Assembly: GCA_027054335.1 (NCBI GenBank)
Contig: JALUPA010000258.1
Span: forward strand, 1-33,023
Direction of reading: 5' to 3'
DNA: 33,023 bases
Source: Ardenticatenaceae bacterium
GTDB taxonomy: Bacteria > Chloroflexota > Anaerolineae > Promineifilales > Promineifilaceae
A program made the position numbers and the translations under genes. The notes below the pieces were generated by a model. That model searched no databases, was not told the origin of the DNA, and saw only the letters and a list, made by a program, of their open reading frames with translations. Shown here piece by piece: positions 9,736-32,572 of this stretch. How positions within the stretch are numbered: position 1 is the stretch's first letter; every line of letters starts with the position of its first letter.

Positions 9736-10950
9736 CTAATAAACAGGCAGCGACTTGTCTATCTCTTGCGCCCAGCGGTTGATGCCGCCTTCCAGATTCC
9801 ACAATTTTTGGAAGCCGTGCTGCTGTAATTGGCGCACAACGGCCGCGCTGCGCGCCCCGCTGCGGCACTGCACCACAATTTCTTTGGCCGTATCCAGTTC
9901 GTTCATACGTTCCAGCACCTGCCCCTGGGGGATGAGAATGGCTCCCAGCGGTTCCAGGTTGGAAATGTCCCATTCGTGCGGCTCACGCACGTCCAGGATG
10001 AGCAGGTCGTCCCCGGCGTCCAGCCTGGCTTTGAGTTCCTGGGGGGTGATTTGGGGTACGGCCGTGCCATTTCCCGTATCGGCTCCGGCGTACAAGCTGT
10101 GATCGTGAGCCGGCATCCCGCAAAACTGCTCGTAATCAATTAATTCTGTGATGGAAGGGTTCTCGCCGCAAACGGGGCAGTGGGGATTTTTGCGCAGGCG
10201 TACCTGGTCAAATTCCATATTCAGGGCATCGTACAGGAGCAAACGGCCAATCAGCGGTTCGCCAATGCCCAGGATGAGCTTGATTGCCTCGGTAGCCTGA
10301 ATGGCCCCAATCGTGCCCGGTAAAACGCCCAACACGCCACCCTCGGCGCAGGAAGGAACCAGCCCCGGCGGCGGTGGTTCGGGGAAGAGGCAGCGGTAGC
10401 ACGGCCCTTCTTCGGCGTAAAAGACGGAAGCCTGCCCTTCAAAGCGGAAAATACTGCCGTAAACGTTGGGCTTGCCCAGCAGCACGCAAGCGTCGTTGGT
10501 CAGGTAACGGGTGGGGAAGTTGTCTGTGCCGTCAATGATGATGTCGTAAGGCTCGAACAGTTCCAGGGCGTTGGCTGAAGTGAGGGGAATTTCGTAGGCG
10601 TCTACCTGGACGTGGGGGTTGATGTCCAGCATCGTTTCTTTGGCACTTTCCAATTTGGGCCGGCCGACGTCTTTGGTGCCGTGAATGATTTGTCGCTGGA
10701 GGTTGGTGTAATCCACTACGTCGTAATCCACCAGGCCGATGCGCCCCACCCCGGCAGCCGCCAAATACATCGCCAGGGGCGATCCCAGCCCGCCGGCGCC
10801 AATTAACAGGACGCTGGCGGCTTTCAGTTTTTTCTGCCCGGCCATGCCCACTTCGGGCATGATCAGGTGGCGGCTGTAGCGTTGTACTTCTTCGTGGGAC
10901 AAGGTGACGTCAGCTACGGCCGTAGGGTCTATCAACTCTTTAATACTCAT
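9736..10950 (-). CDS. moeZ: MoeB/MoeZ-type adenylyltransferase-sulfurtransferase (ThiF + rhodanese)
   Basis: The 404-residue protein has an E1-like ThiF domain (GAGGLG at 51-56, acidic strand DYDVVDYTNLQRQ, zinc pairs Cys184/187 and Cys258/261, CAEGGVLGVLPG). This is followed by a C-terminal rhodanese domain (from about 303) with LDVREPHEWD and catalytic Cys362 in QCRSGARS. Such enzymes adenylate the C-terminal glycine of a MoaD/ThiS/CysO protein and load sulfur as a thiocarboxylate. The gene overlaps the CysO-like gene by 4 nt (ATGA), so they are coupled. With the JAMM protease and CysM-type synthases nearby this fits the mycobacterial CysO-CysM route to cysteine. Confidence 0.92.
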   Translation of the reverse strand: MSIKELIDPTAVADVTLSHEEVQRYSRHLIMPEVGMAGQKKLKAASVLLIGAGGLGSPLAMYLAAAGVGRIGLVDYDVVDYTNLQRQIIHGTKDVGRPKLESAKETMLDINPHVQVDAYEIPLTSANALELFEPYDIIIDGTDNFPTRYLTNDACVLLGKPNVYGSIFRFEGQASVFYAEEGPCYRCLFPEPPPPGLVPSCAEGGVLGVLPGTIGAIQATEAIKLILGIGEPLIGRLLLYDALNMEFDQVRLRKNPHCPVCGENPSITELIDYEQFCGMPAHDHSLYAGADTGNGTAVPQITPQELKARLDAGDDLLILDVREPHEWDISNLEPLGAILIPQGQVLERMNELDTAKEIVVQCRSGARSAAVVRQLQQHGFQKLWNLEGGINRWAQEIDKSLPVY

Positions 10951-11242: not shown

Positions 11243-11316
11243 GGAGATTAGAGATTGGAGATTAGAGACTACCAGCGGTATACGGCCAATCTCCAATCTC
11301 TCAATCTCCAATCTCC
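11243..11316. repeat. GATTGGAGATTAGA word-repeat hairpin
   Basis: GGAGATTAGAGATTGGAG and following words (11243-11269) face CAATCTCCAATCTC words (11287-11316), giving a long imperfect hairpin between the CysO-like and JAMM genes. The end of the JAMM reading frame (EIGD-stop) is encoded within the repeat. Related tracts are at 14199-14243 and 15985-16042. Confidence 0.75.
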
Positions 11317-11735
11317 AAAATATTTTCTTCAACAAAACCAGACCGATCCTCGGCTAACTGCCAGGACTGGCTGTAGGTAGGTTCTCCGTTAAGAACCTGG
11401 GTAATCAAATAGGAATATCCCGGCCAACTGGCCCAGGCCAGGTCGCGGGGTGAGGCTACCGGCGCGTCGTCCGGGTGGCTGTGGAAGATGCCGACAACGT
11501 CCAGGCCGTTCAGCATCGCTTCCAGTTCCACCTGTTGCCACGCCTGCGGGTCAATGCTGAAGCGGACCGGTTTTTCCGCCTCGTTGGGCCACACATTTTC
11601 CAGAGGGCGAATATCGGTTACGATGTTGTTTCCATTTTCCACCTGTCCCAGGAGCAGCCCGCAGCCTTCATACGGGTACGAAGCCGCACCGTGGGCTTTG
11701 ATTTGATTGTGGATTTGTTTTGTCAGTTTTAGCAT
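11301..11735 (-). CDS. JAMM/MPN+ metalloprotease (Mec-like)
   Basis: The 144-residue protein has the zinc JAMM motif: Glu23 in YPYEGCGLLLG, then HSHPDDAPVASPRD with His85, His87, Ser95 and Asp98. In mycobacteria, Mec (such a protein) releases cysteine from CysO-Cys. In QbsD it trims a carrier tail. Either or both roles fit here, since the carrier next door ends GG-RLI. The start at 11735 is preferred: an upstream extension to 11867 would read through word repeats and the riboswitch terminator. It is the first gene after the SAM riboswitch, followed by the CysO-like and moeZ genes. Confidence 0.9.
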   Translation of the reverse strand: MLKLTKQIHNQIKAHGAASYPYEGCGLLLGQVENGNNIVTDIRPLENVWPNEAEKPVRFSIDPQAWQQVELEAMLNGLDVVGIFHSHPDDAPVASPRDLAWASWPGYSYLITQVLNGEPTYSQSWQLAEDRSGFVEENILEIGD

Positions 11736-12090: not shown

Positions 12091-12149
12091 TTGTAATTTG
12101 TAATTGAGTAATTGGGTAACCAGGTAATTACTCAATTACTCAATTACCC
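12091..12149. repeat. TAATTGAGTAATTGGG word-repeat hairpin
   Basis: TTGTAATTTGTAATTGAG and GTAATTGGGTAA (12091-12119) face TAATTACTCAATTACTC words (12125-12149). The stop codon of the cysteine synthase ending at 12144 is part of a repeat word. Confidence 0.75.
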
Positions 12150-13097
12150 ATCCCAAAAAGGATCGCTCAAATACTTGAAGCCGTTATCCGGGAGGACGGT
12201 GACGATGACGCCTTCATCAATCTGACGGGCGACGTGGATCACGGCCGTAACCGCCGCCGCTGCCGAGATGCCCGCAAACAACCCTTCCTGCCGGGCCAGA
12301 AAGCGGGCCATTTCGTAAGCGTCTTCTGTGCGCACGGTGATTTGCTCGTTGGCTGCGGTTTCATCGTAGATGCCGGGTTGGATGGAGGTGGCCATATGCT
12401 TAAGACCTTCCAGGCCGTGAAAGGGGCCGTCCGGCTGCATGGCGATGGTCTGAATGGCCGGGTTGTAGGTTTTCAGGCGGCGAGCTGTGCCGGTGAAGGT
12501 GCCGCCTGTGCCTAAACCGGCGACGAAATGGGTGATACGGCCGTAACTCTGCTGCCAAATCTCCGCGCCCGTCGTATGGTAATGCGCCTGCCAGTTGGCC
12601 GAATTGTTGTACTGGTTGGCGTAAAACAACGTGGGGTCGTCTGCCGCCAGCCGCCGCGCTGCCAGGATGGCCCCGTCCGAGCCTTCCAGAGGATCGGTGA
12701 AGATCAGTTCCGCGCCGTAGGCCTTGAGGATGGCGATGCGTTCCGGGCTGGCGTTGGCCGGCAGGGTGAGCATGACGTGGTAGCCCCGCACCGCGCCCAG
12801 CATGGCGTAGGCGATGCCCATGTTGCCGGAGGTGGAGTCCAGCAGAGTCATGCCGGGGCGCAGTTGGTCGTGCGCTTCGGCGGTGAGGATGATGTTGAGG
12901 GCAGCCCGGTCTTTGACGGAGCCGCTGGGATTGTACCATTCTGCTTTGGCATAAAGCTGGATGGCGTCGGGAATGTCGTGGGCCACGGCCGTGCGCCGCA
13001 GCCGCAGTAAAGGCGTGTGGCCTACCTGACTTTCCAGACTGTCAGACAAAATTTGCTGAGGAGCAAAGGGAGTACGTTTTTCGATTGTAGATAACAT
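12144..13097 (-). CDS. cysM: Cysteine synthase family protein (CysM/CysK type), copy 1
   Basis: The 317-residue fold-type II PLP enzyme has the PLP lysine Lys62 in NPSGSVKDRAA, the STSGNMGIAYA loop and the GTGGTFTGT phosphate cradle. All are typical of O-acetylserine or O-phosphoserine sulfhydrylases. The start at 13097 is chosen because an upstream extension reads repeats. It has its own promoter and a leader with a Cys-containing peptide and attenuator. The neighbouring CysO-like carrier, MoeZ and JAMM protein suggest it may use carrier thiocarboxylate as sulfur donor, as mycobacterial CysM does. A second homologue lies at 14246. Confidence 0.9.
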   Translation of the reverse strand: MLSTIEKRTPFAPQQILSDSLESQVGHTPLLRLRRTAVAHDIPDAIQLYAKAEWYNPSGSVKDRAALNIILTAEAHDQLRPGMTLLDSTSGNMGIAYAMLGAVRGYHVMLTLPANASPERIAILKAYGAELIFTDPLEGSDGAILAARRLAADDPTLFYANQYNNSANWQAHYHTTGAEIWQQSYGRITHFVAGLGTGGTFTGTARRLKTYNPAIQTIAMQPDGPFHGLEGLKHMATSIQPGIYDETAANEQITVRTEDAYEMARFLARQEGLFAGISAAAAVTAVIHVARQIDEGVIVTVLPDNGFKYLSDPFWDG

Positions 13098-13109
13098 ATT
13101 GCAAGTGTT

Positions 13110-13139
13110 CCTGATTGACGATTCACGATTGACGATTAG
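13110..13139. repeat. GATTGACGATTCAC word repeat
   Basis: GATTGACGATTCACGATT is followed by GACGATTAGG in the leader of cysM copy 1, between the attenuator terminator and the start codon. It is a direct repeat of 7-nt words. Confidence 0.6.
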
Positions 13140-13146
13140 GGCAAAC

Positions 13147-13214
13147 AAAAAACGGCCGTACCCGAAGGTGCGCCAGACTGCAATCTTGCGACTGCGAGGG
13201 TGGCTACGGCCGTT
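13147..13214 (-). terminator. Attenuator terminator before cysM copy 1
   Basis: On the minus strand AACGGCCGTA (+ 13205-13214) pairs with TACGGCCGTT (+ 13151-13160), extended by GG/CC pairs, and is followed by six T (13147-13152). The loop is about 44 nt. The left arm alternatively pairs with 13241-13267, so formation is conditional. Confidence 0.7.
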
Positions 13215-14245: not shown

Positions 14246-15169
14246 TCACATTTGACTCAGATATTTTAGTCCATTATCGGGCAAAACGGTAACGAGGACG
14301 CCACGATCCAGGGTGCGGGCCACGTTGACGGTGGCGGCCACGGCCGCAGCCGCGGAGGGGCCGACGAGCAAGCCTTCCTGCCGGGCCAGGATGTGGGTCA
14401 TTTCTTCCGCTTCGGTGCGGGTAACGGTGACGTTGGCGTCGGCGGCCGTTTCGTCGTAGATGGCCGGTTTGACGGCCGTCGCCATATGCTTCATCCCTTT
14501 GATGCCTTCGTGGGCGGTGGCCGGCTGAATGGAGATACACTGCACGGCCGGGTCTTCCTGCTTCAGCCAGAGGGTCGTCCCCATAAAGGTGCCGGCCGAA
14601 CCCAATCCCGTGACGAAATGGGTGATACGGCCGTGCGTTTGCTGCCAGATTTCCGGGGCCATCGTGTGGTAATAGGCCAGCCAGTTTGCCATGTTATCGT
14701 ACTGGTTGGCGTAAAAGAGGCCGGGGTCGGTCTGGGCCATCTGCCGCGCCAGACGCAGCGCGCCGCTGGAGCCTGCCTGGCCGTCGGAGAAGACTAAATC
14801 CACCCCGTACTGGCGCAGGATAGCGATCCGTTCCCGGCTGGCGCTGTCCGGCAAGACCAGCTTGATTTTGTAGCCGCGCGGGATGCCCAGCATGGCGTAG
14901 GCAATGCCCATGTTGCCGGAGGTGGAGTCGAACAGGGTCATGCCCGGCCACAGTTTGCCCTCTTCTTCGGCCGTCTGCATGATCCACAGGGCCGCCCGGT
15001 CTTTGACGGAGCCGCTGGGATTAAACCATTCCGCCTTGGCGTACAGTTCTACCGTGGCGGGCAAGCCGCAGGCTACGGCCGTGCGCGTCAGGCGCAGCAG
15101 AGGGGTATTGCCGACGTGAGTTTCCAGGGTATGGGCGGTTTGGGGGTGAGTTAATTGAGTAATTGTCAT
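14246..15169 (-). CDS. cysM: Cysteine synthase family protein (CysM/CysK type), copy 2
   Basis: The 307-residue protein is clearly a paralogue of the gene at 12144. Marks are PLP Lys56 in NPSGSVKDRAA, TSGNMGIAYAML, and GLGSAGTFMGT in place of the copy 1 GTGGTFTGT cradle. The first codons after ATG (ACAATTACTCAATTAACTC) continue the upstream TAATT word repeat, so the N-terminus TITQL is repeat-derived. No Shine-Dalgarno is visible. Its leader lacks the Cys peptide and attenuator found before copy 1. The two copies probably differ in sulfur donor or in when they are used. Confidence 0.9.
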   Translation of the reverse strand: MTITQLTHPQTAHTLETHVGNTPLLRLTRTAVACGLPATVELYAKAEWFNPSGSVKDRAALWIMQTAEEEGKLWPGMTLFDSTSGNMGIAYAMLGIPRGYKIKLVLPDSASRERIAILRQYGVDLVFSDGQAGSSGALRLARQMAQTDPGLFYANQYDNMANWLAYYHTMAPEIWQQTHGRITHFVTGLGSAGTFMGTTLWLKQEDPAVQCISIQPATAHEGIKGMKHMATAVKPAIYDETAADANVTVTRTEAEEMTHILARQEGLLVGPSAAAAVAATVNVARTLDRGVLVTVLPDNGLKYLSQM

Positions 15170-18705: not shown

Positions 18706-21700
18706 TTACATATTCCGCCGGTACTGGCCGCCCACCTCATACATCGCCTGCGTAATCTGGCCCAGGGAGCAGTACTTGACCGCTTCCATGAGGGACTCGA
18801 ACAGGTTTTCCTGGCGCACGGCCGTATCCCTTAAATCTTCTAACGCCCGCGCTGCCTTCTCCGGGAACCGTTCCTGCAATGCCCGCACCGCCGTAATCTG
18901 CCGCTCCTTCTCCACCTCCGTCGCCCGAATCACCTCTTTGGGGATGATGGTGGGCGAACCTTCGTCCGAGAGGAACGTATTCACGCCCACAATCGGCAGG
19001 TCACCCGAATGCTTCAACTGCTCGTAATAGAGCGACTCCTCCTGAATTTTGCCCCGCTGGTACATCGTCTCCATCGCTCCCAGCACACCGCCCCGCTCCG
19101 TGAGGCGGTCAAACTCCAGCAGGACGGCCTCTTCCACCAGATCGGTTAACTCCTCAATGATGAAAGAGCCTTGCATCGGGTTCTCATTCTTGGCCAGGCC
19201 CAGCTCCTTGTTGATAATCAGCTGGATAGCCATCGCCCGGCGCACCGATTCCTCCGTCGGCGTGGTGATCGCTTCGTCGTAGGCGTTGGTGTGCAGGGAG
19301 TTGCAGTTGTCGTAGATGGCGTAGAGGGCTTGCAGGGTGGTGCGGATGTCGTTGAAGGCGATTTCCTGGGCATGCAGGGAACGGCCGCTCGTCTGGATGT
19401 GGTATTTCAGCTTTTGCGCCCGCTCGTTGGCCTTGTACTTCAGCTTCATCGCCTTGGCCCAGATGCGCCGCGCCACCCGGCCAATCACCGCGTACTCCGC
19501 ATCCTCCCCGTTGGAGAAAAAGAAGGAGAAGTTGGGGGCAAATTTGTTAACGTCCATTCCCCGCGACAAATAATACTCCACAAAAGTAAACCCATTCGCC
19601 AGCGTAAAAGCCAGTTGGCTGATGGGATTGGCCCCCGCCTCGGCGATGTGGTAGCCGGAGATGGAGACGGAGTAGAAGTTGCGCGCGTTGTGGTCAATGA
19701 AATATTGCTGCACGTCCCCCATCAGGCGCAGGCTGAACTCGGTGGAGAAGATGCAGGTGTTTTGCGCCTGGTCTTCTTTGAGGATGTCGGCCTGGACGGT
19801 GCCGCGCACGGTGGACAGGGCGCGCGCCTTGATTTCTTCGTATACGTCGCGGGGCAGCACCATGTCGCCTGTCAGGCCGAGGAGCATCAAGCCCAGGCCG
19901 TCGTTCCCTTCGGGCAGGTTGCCATGGTAACGGGGGCGTTCCAGGCCGCGATCATCGTAAATTTCTCGCAGTTTGGCCTCGACGAGGTGTTCCAAACCGT
20001 GTTCCCGGATGTATAGTTCGCATTGCTGGTCTACGGCCGTATTCATAAAAAACGCCAGCATCGTCGCCGCCGGGCCGTTAATCGTCATACTCACTGAGGT
20101 CGTCGGGTCGCACAGGTTGAAGCCGCTGTAGAGCTTCTTTGCGTCGTCCAAAGTGGCAATGGAGACGCCGGAATTGCCCACCTTGCCGTAAATGTCCGGC
20201 CGGTACGCCGGGTCTTCCCCGTACAGCGTCACCGAATCAAATGCCGTGCTGAGCCGTTTGGCCGGCATCCCCAGAGAGACGTAATGGAAGCGGCGGTTGG
20301 TGCGTTCCGGGCCGCCTTCCCCGGCAAACATGCGCGTCGGGTCTTCGGCCGTCCGCTTGAACGGGTACACCCCGGCCGTGTAAGGAAACTCGCCCGGCAC
20401 ATTCTCCTGCAAATTCCAGCGCAGCACGTCCCCCCAGCCCGCGTACCGGGGCAGCGCCACCTTGGGGATGCGCGTGTGCGACAGCGTCTCCGTCTGCGTC
20501 GGCACGCGAATCTCCCGGCCACGCACCTTGTAGACGAACTCGTCCGCTGCGTAACGCGCCTTTTTCTCCGGCCATGCTTCCAAAATGGCTTGATTGCGCC
20601 GGTCTAATTCCAGGCTGACGTGGTGGTACAGTTCCTCCATCTGCTTGACGAGCCGATCCCTGTCCTCCCAATCTCCCGCCTGCAAGGTTTCGATGGCCTG
20701 CCGGATGCCGTACAGCCGGTTGGCCGTCTTTGCCTGGTCTTCTGTCCACTCATTGTACTGGCGGATTTTCTCCGCGATTTCGCTCAGGTAGCGCGCGCGG
20801 CGGGGCGGAATGACGTAAATTTTCTCCGACGCCTCGTCCGTCGCTTCCAGATGGGGCTGCAAATCCGCCCCCGTGCGCTCGGCCACCGTTTCCATCACCG
20901 CCCGGTACAGCCGGTTCACGCCGGGGTCGTTAAACTGGCTGGCAATTGTGCCGTAGACGGGTAACTCGTCCTCGGCCGTTTGCCACAGGCCGTGATTCCG
21001 CTTGTACTGCTTCTTCACGTCCCGCAGCGCGTCCTCCGCCCCCCGTTTGTCAAATTTATTGATGGCGATCAGGTCGGCGTAATCCAGCATGTCAATTTTT
21101 TCCAGTTGGGTGGCCGCGCCATACTCTGGCGTCATCACGTAGAGCGACACGTCGGAAAAATCCACAATTTCCGTGTCCGACTGGCCAATGCCGGACGTTT
21201 CCAGGATGATCAGGTCGAATTGAGCGGCTTTGAGGATGTTCAACACTTCGGGGATGTGGCGGGAGAGGGCCAGGTTGCTTTGCCGGGTAGCCAGAGAGCG
21301 CATGTAAACCCGGTCATTGTTCACGCTGTTCATGCGGATGCGGTCGCCCAGGAGCGCGCCGCCGGTTTTCCGCTTGGACGGGTCTACGCTGACGATGGCG
21401 ATGCTTTTGTCGGGGAAATCCAGCAGGAAGCGGCGCACTAACTCATCCACCAGCGAGGATTTGCCCGCGCCGCCGGTGCCGGTGATGCCCAGAACGGGGG
21501 GATGGGCCAGCCCTTCCAGGCGCAGATGCACTTCGTCCATGATCGGTTCGACTAAATCGGGCGCGTTTTCTACGGCGGAAATCAGCCGGGCCAGCGCCCG
21601 GTCCGTCACCCATTGATGCACCTGGGGCATGATGGCTGCGCCGCCGTTGCCGTTGCCTCCCATGAAGCCGCCATACGCTTCGTGGATGGCCTGCCGCCAT

Positions 21701-22161
21701 TTGTCCACGTCCAGCCGGCCGGTGGGGAAGTCGGCTTGTTGCAGCAGGTCGTTGATCATCCCTTGCAGGCCCATTTCACGGCCGTCGTCGGGGGAGTAGA
21801 TGCGGGCAATGCCGTAAGCGTGCAGTTCGGCAATTTCGTCCGGCAAAATCGTGCCGCCGCCGCCGCCGAAAATTTTGATGTGGCCGCAGCCTTGTTCCTG
21901 GAGCAGGTCATACATATATTTGAAGAATTCCATGTGCCCGCCTTGGTAGCTGGTGACGGCGATGGCCTGGGCGTCTTCCTGTACGGCCGTGCGCACAATT
22001 TCCCGCGCGCTGCGGTTGTGGCCCAGATGGATTACCTCTGCGCCGGACGCCTGCAAGATGCGGCGCATGATGTTGATCGCCGCGTCGTGCCCGTCAAAAA
22101 GGGATGCGGCCGTGACGATGCGGATTTTGTTTTGCGGTTTGTAAGAGGGGATTTGGTTCAT
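18706..22161 (-). CDS. icmF: IcmF: isobutyryl-CoA mutase fused to B12 domain and MeaB-type GTPase
   Basis: The 1151-residue protein has an N-terminal B12-binding domain with DGHD at 23-26 and FGGGGGT near 98. A G-domain follows with P-loop GTGGAGKSS (228-236), DPSKRKTGG and NKFDKRG, then a linker. The C-terminal mutase TIM barrel contains [19 protein letters not shown] and [16 protein letters not shown]. This order is diagnostic of IcmF. It interconverts isobutyryl-CoA and butyryl-CoA (some pivalyl/isovaleryl-CoA) with adenosylcobalamin, the GTPase guarding cofactor loading. The start codon overlaps the hepT stop by 4 nt, tying it to a toxin-antitoxin pair. A glycine-rich stretch near 164-174 ([11 protein letters not shown]) lengthens the linker. 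Confidence 0.95.
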
Positions 22162-27504: not shown

Positions 27505-27783
27505 ATGAAAGTAAACTTTTACGCCACTTTACGCTCGATTGTCGGCCAAAAAACGGTGGAACTGCCCATTGAAGATGGCGCTACCGTTCAGGCTGTTCTG
27601 GAGATGATTGTGGACCGTTACCCGGATTTGCGAGCGGAACTGATGGATGAAAATGGGCAGCTTTATGGGCACGTTCATTTGTTCATTAACGGCCGTGACG
27701 CTCCCTACCTGGAAAACATGATGCAAACCAAAATAAAGCCAACCGACAAGATAGACGTATTCCCCGCTGTCGGGGGAGGATAA
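27505..27783 (+). CDS. moaD: MoaD-like molybdopterin/tungstopterin sulfur carrier
   Basis: The 92-residue ubiquitin-like protein starts MKVNFYATLRSIVGQKT, has YGHVHLFINGRDAPYLENM, and ends DVFPAVGGG. The intact Gly-rich tail is right for thiocarboxylation. It would supply sulfur for the pterin cofactor, in line with the adjacent (convergent) tungsten aldehyde oxidoreductase. GGGAGAG upstream supports ATG 27505. Its final Gly codons double as the ribosome site of the following ORF. Confidence 0.9.
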   Translation: MKVNFYATLRSIVGQKTVELPIEDGATVQAVLEMIVDRYPDLRAELMDENGQLYGHVHLFINGRDAPYLENMMQTKIKPTDKIDVFPAVGGG

Positions 27784-27786
27784 ACC

Positions 27787-28044
27787 GTGACCCAACAAAT
27801 CGAGGAAATACACGCCATTCCTCTCTGGCTTTTGCGGGAGTATCTGGAAGAGATTGGCGGCACGGCCGTAAGCGATACCCGTGTTGAGGGAGATGGCTGG
27901 ACGGCCGTCCTGATGAAACTGGAGCCGCGCCAGGTCGGGTCATTGCGCGTCGGTCAGGTAAAAGTAGAATTTACCGGTGAGCCGGACACCCTCGGCCCAT
28001 TACAAATCCGGTTTTCCCAAAAAACAATGCGCGCCGGGGCATAA
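27787..28044 (+). CDS. Small protein linked to MoaD (MoaD-related C-terminal domain-like?)
   Basis: The 85-residue protein starts at GTG 27787, 3 nt after the moaD stop, with GGGGGAGGA as ribosome site. The sequence (HAIPLWLLREYLEEIGGTAV, GWTAVLMKLEPRQVGSL, VKVEFTGE) is a compact alpha/beta protein. It may correspond to the domain that in Thermus is fused behind MoaD (DUF1952-like); this is recalled from family knowledge and not verified. Tight coupling suggests a role in sulfur-carrier function. Confidence 0.6.
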   Translation: MTQQIEEIHAIPLWLLREYLEEIGGTAVSDTRVEGDGWTAVLMKLEPRQVGSLRVGQVKVEFTGEPDTLGPLQIRFSQKTMRAGA

Positions 28045-28130: not shown

Positions 28131-28159
28131 GACTACTCGACTACAAGACTACCCGACTA
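28131..28159. repeat. GACTACCCGACTAC word repeat at stop codon
   Basis: GACTACTCGACTACAAGACT and ACCCGACTA, the same words as at 4923-4992. The stop codon of the oxidoreductase (TAG) is inside the last word. Confidence 0.7.
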
Positions 28160-29980
28160 AATAATCTCCAGTTCCTTCAATTTCTCTTCCGGAACCACGC
28201 CATTTTCCCAGCCGCGCACCGCATAATACTCTTCCAGCATTTTGTCTAGCTCGCAGACCTGCCCTTCAGAACCGGGCGAGGTTGAAGGTTCATCTGTAAA
28301 CCGTTTGGGCAAATAGTCGCTGCCTTCACCAAGACCGGCCAGATTATTGTAATACCGTTCCAGGTTATAGATGCGTTCACCAGTCTTCAGCGCATCGTCC
28401 GCCGAAATCTCAACGCCTGTCATCGCCGAATACTGGGCAGCGTATTCATCCATGCCCATAGCAAAAGCGCTGAACTTGCACAAATCCATGCTGTCAGAAA
28501 AAGCGTGAACGTCCTGGAAAATCTTGGTCAGTTCACCCTTGCCTTTCCAGGCCAGCGGATCGGCGCTCAGAGATTGGAAGGGCATGATGTTCAGTTCGGC
28601 TGCCGGTGTGTAGGCCCGCAGATGGCAAGCGCCCCGGTTGCTGGTGGCGTAGGCAATGCCCATCCCCTTCAGGCCGCGCGGGTCGTAAGCCGGGATTGCC
28701 TGACCTTTTACCGCCATGCCAATTTCCGGATGGCCGAAATGCTCTGCCGCCCGCGCCGCACCGCCGGCCAGCGCGTCGCCAACACCTTCCCGGTGAGCGA
28801 TCATGTCCACAATTTCTACCATGCGCTGCCAATCACCCCAGGACAGCGAGCCGTCCCCGTTTGTATACTGGTTTTCGCTGGCTTCCATGTAAACGGAAAG
28901 TGTATTGCCCAACTCGATAGTGTCCATGCCGTAATCATTACACTGGTCAATCATCTTGGCTACGGCGTCAATGTCGGTGAGGCCGCAGTTGGCGCCCAAA
29001 GCCCAGGCTGACTCGTACTCTACGCTTTCCATGTGCAGTCCCTTGAATGGGCCTTGCGTAATTTTCACTTCCTTCTTGCAGGCTACGGGGCAGGCATGGC
29101 ACGTGGGGTCATTGACCAGGATATGCTCGTTGACGTATTCACCACTGATGTTTTCCGCGCCTTCCAGCGAGGTAACTTTACTGTTGAGACAAGGCAAGGC
29201 GCCCATTGTGTTGGTGATATTCATCAGCACGTTGGTGCCGTAGACGGAAAGACCGCCTTTGCGCGGGCTGGTGATGTTGGCCTCGTCCATGATGACAGCC
29301 AGCGCCCGTGAATGGGCTTCCTTCCAGGCGTCCTTGTTGGCCGGTTTGGGGAAGCTTTTCTTGGCTTTAATGACGATGGCTTTCAGGTTCTTGCTGCCGC
29401 CTACACAGCCCGTGCCGCCCCGGCCGGCTGCCCGGTCGTCTTCGTTGAGCCAACCGGCAAAACGCACCTGATTTTCACCGGCCTGACCGATAGCCATCAC
29501 GCTTAAATCTTTCTCGCCGTATTTTTCCTTAAAATGTTTGATGGTGTCGTGAATGCCCAGGCCCCACACTTCGGAAGCATCGCGCAGTTCTAATTTGCCA
29601 TCTTCCAGATAGGCGTAAACCGGTTTTTCAGACGCGCCTTTGAAGATGAGGCCGTCAAAACCGGCCCAACGCATCCGGGCCGCCGACCAGCCGCCCATAT
29701 GGCTGTCCGTGACGGTACCGGTGAGAGGGGATTTGGTGACGACGGCAATGCGCCCACTCATGTTGGCCGCTGTGCCTGTCATGGGGCCGTTCATAAAACA
29801 TAAAATGTTGTCGGGTGATAAGGGGTCTACTTCGGGGCCGTTTTCAAATACGTAGCGCACTCCCAGGCCGCGCGCGCCAATGTATTTTCTGGCCCAATCT
29901 TCAGGAATTTCGTTGTATGCGACTGTTCCCGAAGTCAGATCAATGTGAGCCATGTTATTTGCATATCCACCTAAATCCAT
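28157..29980 (-). CDS. aor: Aldehyde ferredoxin oxidoreductase (tungsten, AOR family)
   Basis: The 607-residue protein starts MDLGGYANNMAHIDLTSG and contains YIGARGLG, GPMTGTAANMSGR, and the bis-pterin binding GRGGTGCVGGSKNLKAI. Iron-sulfur Cys294, Cys297 and Cys301 lie in CHACPVAC, with a further Cys in DLCKF near the C-terminus. These mark tungsten AORs, which oxidise aldehydes to acids using ferredoxin. Start 29980 has GGAGGA 6 nt upstream; the longer frame to 30019 lacks one. No ACGGCCGT octamer lies in the gene. Upstream in the same direction is the protoglobin-MoaD fusion gene; moaD lies convergently downstream. Confidence 0.93.
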   Translation of the reverse strand: MDLGGYANNMAHIDLTSGTVAYNEIPEDWARKYIGARGLGVRYVFENGPEVDPLSPDNILCFMNGPMTGTAANMSGRIAVVTKSPLTGTVTDSHMGGWSAARMRWAGFDGLIFKGASEKPVYAYLEDGKLELRDASEVWGLGIHDTIKHFKEKYGEKDLSVMAIGQAGENQVRFAGWLNEDDRAAGRGGTGCVGGSKNLKAIVIKAKKSFPKPANKDAWKEAHSRALAVIMDEANITSPRKGGLSVYGTNVLMNITNTMGALPCLNSKVTSLEGAENISGEYVNEHILVNDPTCHACPVACKKEVKITQGPFKGLHMESVEYESAWALGANCGLTDIDAVAKMIDQCNDYGMDTIELGNTLSVYMEASENQYTNGDGSLSWGDWQRMVEIVDMIAHREGVGDALAGGAARAAEHFGHPEIGMAVKGQAIPAYDPRGLKGMGIAYATSNRGACHLRAYTPAAELNIMPFQSLSADPLAWKGKGELTKIFQDVHAFSDSMDLCKFSAFAMGMDEYAAQYSAMTGVEISADDALKTGERIYNLERYYNNLAGLGEGSDYLPKRFTDEPSTSPGSEGQVCELDKMLEEYYAVRGWENGVVPEEKLKELEII

Positions 29981-30162: not shown

Positions 30163-31056
30163 TTATCGTCCGGGAGGAAAGATGTTAATCTCGTCGTTTT
30201 TGTGGAGGGGTACGGTGAAGCCGCCGTTGTAGGCCAGGTCACGGCCGTTCAGCAATACGCGCCAGCCGCCCCGAGGAATGTAAGCCGGGAATACTTCCAC
30301 CCAGGCTGAATCCGGTTTTTCATGGGAATGCCAGACTTGTTCCAGAGCTTCGGTGCGGGTCTGCGGATAGTAGTTGAAGAATTTACGTAAGGCGTCGGCT
30401 ACAATGCTGTTCTGCCGTACAGGGATTTCTATTTGACGCCGGCCGACTAACGGCCGTATCCGGCCAAATAGCGTTACGGGGATGGTGAAGTCGCCGTCAT
30501 CATACTCCCTGGCAATTTCATAGCCGTGCTGCATTAGGTGGAGCTGGACGGAAAGGTACTTGTTCCAGCCAACCATGGCGGAGGCGATCACCTCGCCAGA
30601 CAGGTGGGCGTCCTGCATGTAGCTGGCAAAGGCGGCCCCGGTCATACCGACGGCCGTGGTGATGTAAGCAGGCGGGGTGTGGATGTGGCGCGGGCCGTGC
30701 CCGGCGTGGTATTTGCCTGCTTTGAACAGGTAGTAGGCCATCTCGTCGCTGGTATCCAGGCCCAGGGTGCGGGCCAGCCAAACAGTGAAGAAGCGGCGGC
30801 GTTCTTCCAGATGTTCTTCGTCTGCGCCCGTCTCCCACCCCAGAATAGCAGCCGTTTCCGGTACGGACAGTAAGTAGTCATACGTACCGACGACTAACTC
30901 CACGGCGCGCCGCATCAGCGTTTCCACAGAGCGGGACATGGCCAGCTTGTCGTCTTCCGTCAGACCGGCAAAGCGCAGCATACGTTGCCACTCCTCATCC
31001 GGAGCGGCTGCCAGATTGTTTATTTCCAGGTTTTGGGGAATTGTTTTTGCTATCAT
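30163..31056 (-). CDS. Putative protoglobin-like domain fused to MoaD-like domain
   Basis: The 297-residue protein has an N-terminal all-helical domain (about 10-180) with LEERRRFFTVWLARTL and YYLFKAGKYHAGHGPRHIHTPPAYI. The His cluster (117, 120, 124, 126) before PPAY resembles the heme-ligand helix of protoglobins and globin-coupled sensors. The C-terminal part (about 190-297) is ubiquitin-like: FTIPVTLFGRIRPLVG, RVLLNGRDLAYNGGF, HKNDEINIFPPGR. Unlike active carriers it ends PPGR, not GG. An AAAGG site supports start 31056. It is upstream of the tungsten AOR, so it may sense O2/NO/CO and act on cofactor maturation or AOR (inference). Confidence 0.6.
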   Translation of the reverse strand: MIAKTIPQNLEINNLAAAPDEEWQRMLRFAGLTEDDKLAMSRSVETLMRRAVELVVGTYDYLLSVPETAAILGWETGADEEHLEERRRFFTVWLARTLGLDTSDEMAYYLFKAGKYHAGHGPRHIHTPPAYITTAVGMTGAAFASYMQDAHLSGEVIASAMVGWNKYLSVQLHLMQHGYEIAREYDDGDFTIPVTLFGRIRPLVGRRQIEIPVRQNSIVADALRKFFNYYPQTRTEALEQVWHSHEKPDSAWVEVFPAYIPRGGWRVLLNGRDLAYNGGFTVPLHKNDEINIFPPGR

Positions 31057-31119: not shown

Positions 31120-31194
31120 TTTATAATTTGACACAGGTTTTGAACATTCATACAATCTTGCCTGAATTTGCATAGTTTTGCACAGGATTTAAGG

Positions 31195-31200: not shown

Positions 31201-31236
31201 GCCTATTTCGTACTAAAAGGCATTTACGAAATAGGC
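31201..31236. promoter_or_regulatory. 36-bp operator: 12-bp inverted arms
   Basis: GCCTATTTCGTA (31201-31212) and TACGAAATAGGC (31225-31236) are perfect arms with a 12-nt spacer. It sits between the divergent AOR unit and the MerR-type regulator and covers that regulator's transcription start. It is the best candidate for its binding site. Confidence 0.7.
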
Positions 31237-31253
31237 CATACGAAGAGTTGCTG

Positions 31254-31874
31254 ATGACAAATGAATTGCAGCCAGGTGAAACATGGTTATCGCTGACGCA
31301 GGCTGCCAGGCAATTTAATGTCCATCCGACAACGCTGCGCCGGTGGGCGAATAACGGGCAAATTCCCTATATTTTGACGCCTGGCGGGCATCGTCGTTTT
31401 GCTTTGTCTGACATTGAGGCGTTTTTTAAGCGCCAGCAAAGGGGCAGGCAGTCGGTACCGCAAGTCTGGGCGGATAAGGCGTTAACCCATACCCGGCAGG
31501 AAATGGGCCAATATTCGGACTCATCCTGGATGATGGCGATGAATGATCATTACCGGGAAGTTCACCGTCACCTGGGGCAAAAGCTGCTGGGTCTGACGCT
31601 GCAATATATTTCGGGCAATGGAAAAAGTGAGCAGCTGCTGGAGGAGGCGCGGCATATTGGGCATGAATACGGCCGTATCAGCCAGGAACTCAATCTCCCG
31701 CTCACCGTTCCCCTGCAAGCCTCCCTCTTTTTCCGCGACCGGCTGATTGAAGCCGCTTTGCAACTCCCCGATTCCACCCGCATTAAATCTAATGAAAACC
31801 TGTATTTGCTGGAACGAATCAACACGCTTATCAATACCGTCCATCTGGCTATTGCGGAAATGTATGCGGCGTGA
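31254..31874 (+). CDS. MerR-type / excisionase-fold DNA-binding regulator
   Basis: The 206-residue protein has an N-terminal HTH (about 11-60): WLSLTQAARQFNVHPTTLRRWANNG, then TPGGHRRFALSDIEAF. These are the signature of MerR/BldC-like domains. The C-terminal 130 residues are helical (RHIGHEYGRISQELNLP, LERINTLINTVHLAIAEMYA) and may be a ligand-binding or oligomerisation domain. It is divergent from the globin-MoaD/aor unit with a shared palindrome, so it probably controls it. ATG 31254 is preferred over TTG 31248. Confidence 0.8.
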   Translation: MTNELQPGETWLSLTQAARQFNVHPTTLRRWANNGQIPYILTPGGHRRFALSDIEAFFKRQQRGRQSVPQVWADKALTHTRQEMGQYSDSSWMMAMNDHYREVHRHLGQKLLGLTLQYISGNGKSEQLLEEARHIGHEYGRISQELNLPLTVPLQASLFFRDRLIEAALQLPDSTRIKSNENLYLLERINTLINTVHLAIAEMYAA

Positions 31875-31918: not shown

Positions 31919-31946
31919 GACGTAACGAAGAACACGGAGGATGTCC

Positions 31947-32228
31947 ATGTTACAAGTTACCAGGCACCGTTATATTGTTACTGATGGTCGGATTCTTGGC
32001 GGCGAACCAATCATTGAGGGTACACGCACGCCGGTCAGAGCCATAGTGGAAATGTGGCGGCAAGGTATGCTGCCGGAAGAAATCTCTCAACAATTGCCCC
32101 ATCTTACATTAGCTCAAGTATTTGACGCATTGAGTTTTTACAGTGATCATCAGGAAGAAATTAACGAATATATTGAACGAAACCGTATTCCTGACGAATT
32201 GATCGACTCGTCTGCCGCTTTGTTGTGA
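31947..32228 (+). CDS. DUF433 antitoxin
   Basis: The 93-residue protein has the DUF433 pattern: RYIVTDGRILGGEPIIEGTRTPVRAI, MLPEEISQQLPHLTLAQVFDALSFYSDH, an HTH-like fold of VapB-type antitoxins. GGAGG ends 6 nt before ATG 31947, so this start is preferred to 31941. It overlaps the next gene by 4 nt. Confidence 0.88.
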   Translation: MLQVTRHRYIVTDGRILGGEPIIEGTRTPVRAIVEMWRQGMLPEEISQQLPHLTLAQVFDALSFYSDHQEEINEYIERNRIPDELIDSSAALL

Positions 32229-32572
32229 ACCGTTTGTTTATTGAATTGTATCTGGATGAAGATGTTAGCGTTCTTGTGGCCGACATTTTACGCAGCCGAG
32301 GATTTGCGGCTTTGACCACAAGGGATGCCGGAAATCTGGGGAGTTCAGATATTGATCAGTTGGCTTATGCTGTACAGCATAACAAGGCGCTGTTGACGCA
32401 TAACCGGGCTGATTTTGAGCAATTGGCTGAACAATATCGGGTGGAAGGCAAAATGCATTATGGTGTTGTTCTGGCAGTGCGTTATCCACCTTATGAATTG
32501 GTACGACGACTTATGCGGATTTTGAACCAGATTACCGCCGATGAAATGCAAAACCAAGTGCGTTATATCTAG
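32225..32572 (+). CDS. DUF5615 PIN-like toxin
   Basis: The 115-residue protein begins (GTG) with LFIELYLDEDVSVLVADILRSRG, then LTTRDAGNLGSSDIDQLAYA and LLTHNRADF, the DUF5615/Mut7-C PIN-like motif set. The DUF433-DUF5615 pairing is a common toxin-antitoxin module. The GTGA overlap implies coupling. Confidence 0.88.
   Translation: MNRLFIELYLDEDVSVLVADILRSRGFAALTTRDAGNLGSSDIDQLAYAVQHNKALLTHNRADFEQLAEQYRVEGKMHYGVVLAVRYPPYELVRRLMRILNQITADEMQNQVRYI

Follow-up and report, generated by a model that had tools for sequence, protein, structure and literature searches.

A protoglobin domain fused to a MoaD-like domain recurs beside tungsten aldehyde oxidoreductase or N-oxide respiration genes in Chloroflexota and on Thermus plasmids

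The outputs described for globin-coupled sensors, such as HemAT, AfGcHK and GsGCS, are methyl-accepting, kinase, cyclase or other domains, and protoglobins proper, such as the Pgb of M. acetivorans, have no second domain at all. The sulfur carriers MoaD, SAMP1 and ThiS, together with ubiquitin-like modifiers, adopt a beta-grasp fold, and the C-terminal Gly-Gly of the sulfur carriers is adenylated and thiocarboxylated. A MoaD gene adjoining aor, the gene of aldehyde oxidoreductase (AOR), and an AOR-MoaD fusion in Azoarcus are both known and have been read as part of W-cofactor synthesis, in a study where globins go unmentioned (Iyer et al. 2006, PMC1779556). Clade 83 of the WORs has members in aerobic haloarchaea and also comprises BmWOR, an enzyme that works in air (PMC13328260, PMC9424855). 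As for nitrate respiration in Thermus, PMC6282519 presents DrpA and DrpB as regulators that respond to nitrate and need DnrT for their expression. In strain NAR1, drpAB has been reported as bicistronic.

The stretch of DNA analysed here, the window, is a contig of 33,023 nucleotides from an Ardenticatenaceae bacterium. Near its end lies a gene that joins a sensor-type globin to a MoaD-like domain, surrounded by the following features:

30163-31056 (-): fusion gene, sensor/protoglobin domain plus MoaD-like domain, 297 aa (ORF, Pfam/NCBIfam, homologues, AF2 model)
30511-30996 (-): Protoglobin domain, residues 21-182 (PF11563, conserved Tyr59/His117, Foldseek)
30166-30489 (-): MoaD/SAMP1-like beta-grasp domain, residues 190-297 (NCBIfam SAMP1, profile matches, Foldseek)
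30166-30177 (-): C-terminal tail PPGR (same ending in 73 of 75 homologues)
28157-29980 (-): tungsten aldehyde oxidoreductase, WOR clade-83-like, 607 aa (AFOR_C E 8e-130, AFOR_N E 4e-75)
27505-27783 (+): stand-alone MoaD, tail ...FPAVGGG, convergent to aor (ThiS 7.8e-13; SAMP1 above cut-off)
27787-28044 (+): DUF1952 protein, MoaD companion (PF09189 1.6e-10; recurs with MoaD)
31248-31874 (+): MerR/BldC-like HTH regulator, divergent (HTH_17 E 6.5e-13)
31201-31236 (no strand): perfect 12-bp inverted repeat (GCCTATTTCGTA / TACGAAATAGGC) with a 12-bp spacer, between the fusion and HTH genes (sequence)

The 297 aa are counted from an ATG at 31056, near which most homologues start as well; initiation at an in-frame ATG at 31173 would give a protein 39 aa longer. 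An earlier note, made from the letters alone, had proposed a protoglobin-like N-terminal domain on the strength of a His-rich segment, YHAGHGPRHIHTPPAY, and a MoaD-like C-terminal domain ending in PPGR, encoded ahead of aor and divergently from a MerR-type gene. All of these proposals are borne out. Specifically, residues 21-182 match Pfam Protoglobin (PF11563) with E 2e-12 and 47.8 bits, the cut-off being 25. The matches of the C-terminal part stay under the curated cut-offs, that of ThiS (residues 194-295, E 3.8e-4) slightly, at 21.4 against 22.5, and those of the NCBIfam models SAMP1 (E 5.5e-9) and moaD_arch (E 9.7e-8) at 36.4 against 60 and 32.4 against 49.5, respectively. When 13 homologues were compared with Pfam, Protoglobin was found in all 13 (best E 1.5e-16) and ThiS in 12 (best E 2.4e-9), and their joint profile retrieved the solved MoaD/SAMP1 proteins 2m19, 1vjk, 1v8c and 2l52 as well as the globin domain of Tlr1989. 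An AlphaFold2 model built from the alignment of these 13 homologues (mean pLDDT 86.9, pTM 0.83) returns a predicted globin fold, the point on which the earlier proposal could have failed, next to a predicted MoaD/SAMP1 fold. In Foldseek comparisons, with TM values normalised by target, the modelled globin part resembles AfGcHK (0.84), GsGCS (0.83) and M. acetivorans Pgb (about 0.68), Tlr1989 being matched too, and the modelled C-terminal part resembles SAMP1/MoaD (0.72-0.87). His117, at the end of a predicted helix spanning residues 104-117 and aligned with the equivalent His stretch in Tlr1989, is the putative proximal heme ligand, and Tyr59 is predicted to lie on the distal side. The protein itself ends in FPPGR, and aor follows 182 bp downstream on the same strand.

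The fusion is not confined to the window. A pattern search across the genomes of GTDB, covering all species and sensitive to close relatives only, retrieved 12 full-length homologues, 46-93% identical and all from Chloroflexota. A profile search found the fusion in 62 of the 396 host-class genomes examined (a count that includes the window's genome and two incomplete copies), while seven further genomes of the class hold the globin part alone within longer ORFs. A phylum-wide sample added five fusion genomes outside the host class, another Chloroflexota class included. Beyond Chloroflexota, a tblastn search of plasmid records yielded 15 Thermus plasmid records with a homologue, sharing 36-37% identity with the query along about 95% of its length, most of which NCBI labels merely as 'protoglobin domain-containing protein'. 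In all 75 sequences, drawn from both phyla, Y59, W74, R86, R87, W93, D101, G114, H117 and W252 are invariant, and the PPGR ending is kept in 73, the exceptions being a variant tail (locus L096) and a truncated gene (locus L103). On this sequence evidence a chance origin of the fusion is excluded, because both domains and the tail persist in full-length homologues of two phyla, even at 36% identity. The fusion is a real and old family.

The tail of the MoaD-like domain bears directly on its function. Where the charged tail of MoaD reads PPVAGG or PAVGGG, the fusion has PPGR, and a C-terminal Gly-Gly occurs in none of the 75 fusions. The stand-alone MoaDs in the neighbourhood end in VGGG or VAGG, or carry a few residues after GG(G), with one tail (locus L089) not clearly resolved. 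Since PPGR is conserved in the fusions while the adjoining stand-alone MoaDs retain the glycine tail, the C-terminal domain, judged by its residues, can almost certainly not be charged as a sulfur carrier. The fusion has thus given up the chargeable tail and kept the MoaD fold, with the replacement tail conserved as well. Accordingly, the role in sulfur supply to the pterin cofactor that the earlier note had entertained is disfavoured by the tail.

Concerning the genomic setting, the link with aor, the second point on which the earlier proposal could have failed, reaches well beyond the window. Of 65 distinct fusion loci, 31 have an AOR gene in the flanking sequence covered (up to 8 kb), 26 of them at less than 1 kb (relative arrangements, n=31: d> 17, d< 11, u> 2 and u< 1), for which a rough chance model with four AORs per 4.5 Mb gives about 1e-38, related loci not being independent. 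Some AOR is present in all 62 fusion genomes versus 242 of 334 others (p 3e-8). More specifically, an orthologue of the window AOR (62-100% identity, other AORs reaching at most 43%) occurs in 39 of 43 fusion genomes versus 40 of 255 without the fusion (Fisher p 3e-22, ignoring phylogeny; counts read by hand from tables), and it is present in most genomes whose fusion is located elsewhere. MoaD, DUF1952, MoeA and TupB-like permease genes recur in these AOR/fusion loci. The association of fusion and aor is thus strong. As 40 genomes carry the AOR orthologue without the fusion, the latter is not needed for AOR maturation. By comparison with the PDB, the best solved relative of the window AOR is the Haloferax volcanii structure 9q1t, 'WOR83' (743 bits, the next at 485). 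The WOR83-type AOR of two haloarchaeal plasmids has neither a globin nor a MoaD annotated in its neighbourhood. Exposure of the hosts to O2 was considered as the reason for the fusion and set aside: a heme-copper oxidase is found in 72 of 79 genomes with the AOR orthologue and does not separate those that have the fusion from those that lack it. The divergent MerR-type regulator does not qualify as a conserved partner either, since only the window and its closest relative (L002) have it; the inverted repeat between the fusion and regulator genes is a possible operator.

A second recurrent setting, which the earlier note did not mention, is made of nitrate, nitrite and N2O respiration genes. 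Denitrification-type or associated membrane genes accompany the fusion in 13 other loci, and NosZ, NosL, NosY or NrfA are found in seven, NosZ being of the Sec-dependent type (TIGR04246, 855 bits). CRP/FNR-type regulators, cupins and membrane proteins without an assigned family recur in these loci. Neither setting is seen in 18 of the 65 loci, eight of which have a membrane protein without assigned family, and no locus combines the two, which are interleaved in the tree with at least eight switches. The recurrent fusion-adjacent membrane proteins without a Pfam match (L072:5158-6282, L059:3394-4644, L146:12861-14012) may represent new families associated with N-oxide respiration. The idea that a downstream membrane protein (C4) might be NnrS was given up, as it has no match in Pfam or NCBIfam.

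The Thermus copies belong to this second setting. In T. thermophilus SG0.5JP17-16 and JL-18 the gene row reads dnrT-dnrS, narC-G-H-J-I-transporter, drpA, drpB, a gene for a 144-aa COX1-like membrane protein and, 3 bp further on, the fusion, followed by genes for a 383-aa membrane protein and for an Fe-S assembly protein. Homologues of the 144-aa protein adjoin the fusion in Chloroflexota too, and a DrpA homologue 66% identical is encoded in the Chloroflexota locus L062. In strain NAR1 (L151:6590-9810) a transposase gene stands between drpB and the fusion, which would suggest that the drp operon, bicistronic in that strain according to the literature, may be longer in other strains. Among the Thermus sequences searched, namely plasmids, those with the fusion have no close clade-83 AOR (best about 28%), so that AOR is probably not the sole client. 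What both settings share is exposure to O2 or nitrogen oxides and the presence of pterin-metal enzymes, with W in AOR and Mo in NarG.

The reading to which we tentatively lean, and which is quite possibly correct, is that of a heme-based, gas-responsive accessory protein whose uncharged MoaD-like domain serves for docking or as a decoy, acting on a MoaD-handling partner or on a W/Mo pterin enzyme. The N-terminal domain, of the globin-coupled-sensor type, would bind heme via His117 and take up NO or O2. The MoaD-like domain would keep the sulfur-carrier fold and, because PPGR stands in place of Gly-Gly, would undergo neither adenylation nor thiocarboxylation. Most likely a docking or decoy module, it would transmit the heme state to a protein whose usual ligand is MoaD, such as MoaE (MPT synthase) or the MoeB/ThiF activating enzyme; alternatively, the target may be the tungsten or molybdenum pterin enzyme itself. 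In the window genome the likely client would be the downstream clade-83-like tungsten AOR, while elsewhere the fusion would act within modules of nitrate, nitrite and N2O respiration. Heme occupancy, the gas, the partner and the direction of the effect are all points that we infer. A doubtful elaboration is that of a gas-gated pseudo-sulfur-carrier, in which the dead-tailed MoaD look-alike would compete with real MoaD and throttle W/Mo pterin sulfuration or cofactor loading under NO or O2.

Nearly as good as the heme-sensor reading, although unlikely in its own right, is a detoxifying globin whose heme would remove NO, nitrite/peroxynitrite or O2 near sensitive metal-pterin and Fe-S enzymes, the MoaD-like part merely tethering it. 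The recurrence with nosZ/nosL/nrfA and nar speaks for it, as does the higher frequency of NosZ in genomes with both fusion and AOR (17 of 39) than in those with AOR only (7 of 40, p 0.015); moreover, a protoglobin shows nitrite-reductase and peroxynitrite isomerisation activity in vitro, according to PMC4020757. However, no obvious reductase partner adjoins the gene, the two settings never meet in one locus, and detoxification alone leaves the fixed PPGR tail unexplained. The tight phyletic coupling to one AOR orthologue, often adjacent, would rather bring to mind a subunit or redox partner of AOR, with electrons passing from the enzyme to the globin heme and the MoaD-like domain providing the contact. 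This is improbable, given that the clade-83 enzyme BmWOR is reported to be monomeric and to use a 4Fe ferredoxin (PMC13328260, PMC9424855), that half of the genomes with the AOR orthologue have no fusion, and that the Thermus plasmid copies come without a close AOR.

The MoaD fold and the MoaD, DUF1952, MoeA and TupB-like permease genes nearby are also what a working sulfur carrier for W- or Mo-pterin synthesis would display, if it were charged on its single Gly once the last Arg is lost; still, the terminal Arg is conserved equally with that Gly, Gly-Gly is lacking throughout, and an intact GGG MoaD is encoded in the same locus, so that we consider this highly improbable. Finally, globin-like domains without heme exist, and heme ligation by His117 is here a prediction; a heme-free globin acting as a pure scaffold is nevertheless the least probable reading, as the predicted proximal His, invariant in all 75 sequences, closes the helix predicted for residues 104-117 and lines up with the His segment of Tlr1989.

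Other parts of the window deserve a brief record. MoaD and DUF1952 are separate adjacent genes at 27505-28044(+), and T. thermophilus 1v8c, a MoaD-related protein of 168 aa, appears to join both. A ThiF-rhodanese E1-like gene, a JAB protease gene and two cysteine-synthase-like genes cluster at 9736-10950(-), 11301-11735(-), 12144-13148(-) and 14246-15169(-), resembling the clusters of E1, JAB and cysteine synthase genes in PMC1779556. The overlapping DUF433 and DUF5615 (PIN-like) pair at 31941-32572(+) is toxin-antitoxin-like. The 1151-aa ORF at 18706-22161(-) looks like a B12-dependent acyl-CoA mutase fused to a GTPase chaperone domain.

As the earlier note had supposed, no published description of a globin-MoaD fusion was found, nor, in the literature searched, any paper containing both 'protoglobin' and 'MoaD'. 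No globin or MoaD partner of clade-83 WOR is mentioned in PMC9424855 and PMC13328260, and no description of the fusion was found in the accessible portions of the Thermus element papers (PMC6282519, PMC7694296). The fusion extends the sensor globins by a MoaD-like output, and together with its gene settings it suggests a hitherto undescribed link between gas sensing and AOR or N-oxide respiration enzymes. It offers a candidate route by which NO or O2 could be coupled to pterin enzymes of tungsten and molybdenum. WORs of clade 83 that tolerate air are a recent finding, and the fusion may bear on how their hosts protect or regulate them. Since the Thermus homologues adjoin a nitrate-respiration element that has been studied and is genetically tractable, the idea can be tested in an organism that is harmless.

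Compared with the known systems, the fusion has in common with globin-coupled sensors and protoglobin the N-terminal family, the fold and the conserved His; it differs from the sensors in its MoaD-like output and from protoglobins proper in possessing a second domain. With MoaD, SAMP1, ThiS and ubiquitin-like modifiers it shares the beta-grasp fold and profile, and it departs from the carriers in its PPGR end, the conserved Trp252 and Trp265 and an enlarged loop. In comparison with the clusters of PMC1779556, its locus has an additional globin-fused MoaD-like domain without a chargeable tail, beside an AOR whose closest solved structure is that of WOR83, and in the Thermus nitrate-respiration element with drpAB (PMC6282519, PMC7694296) the homologue takes its place in the gene row after drpB in SG0.5JP17-16 and JL-18.
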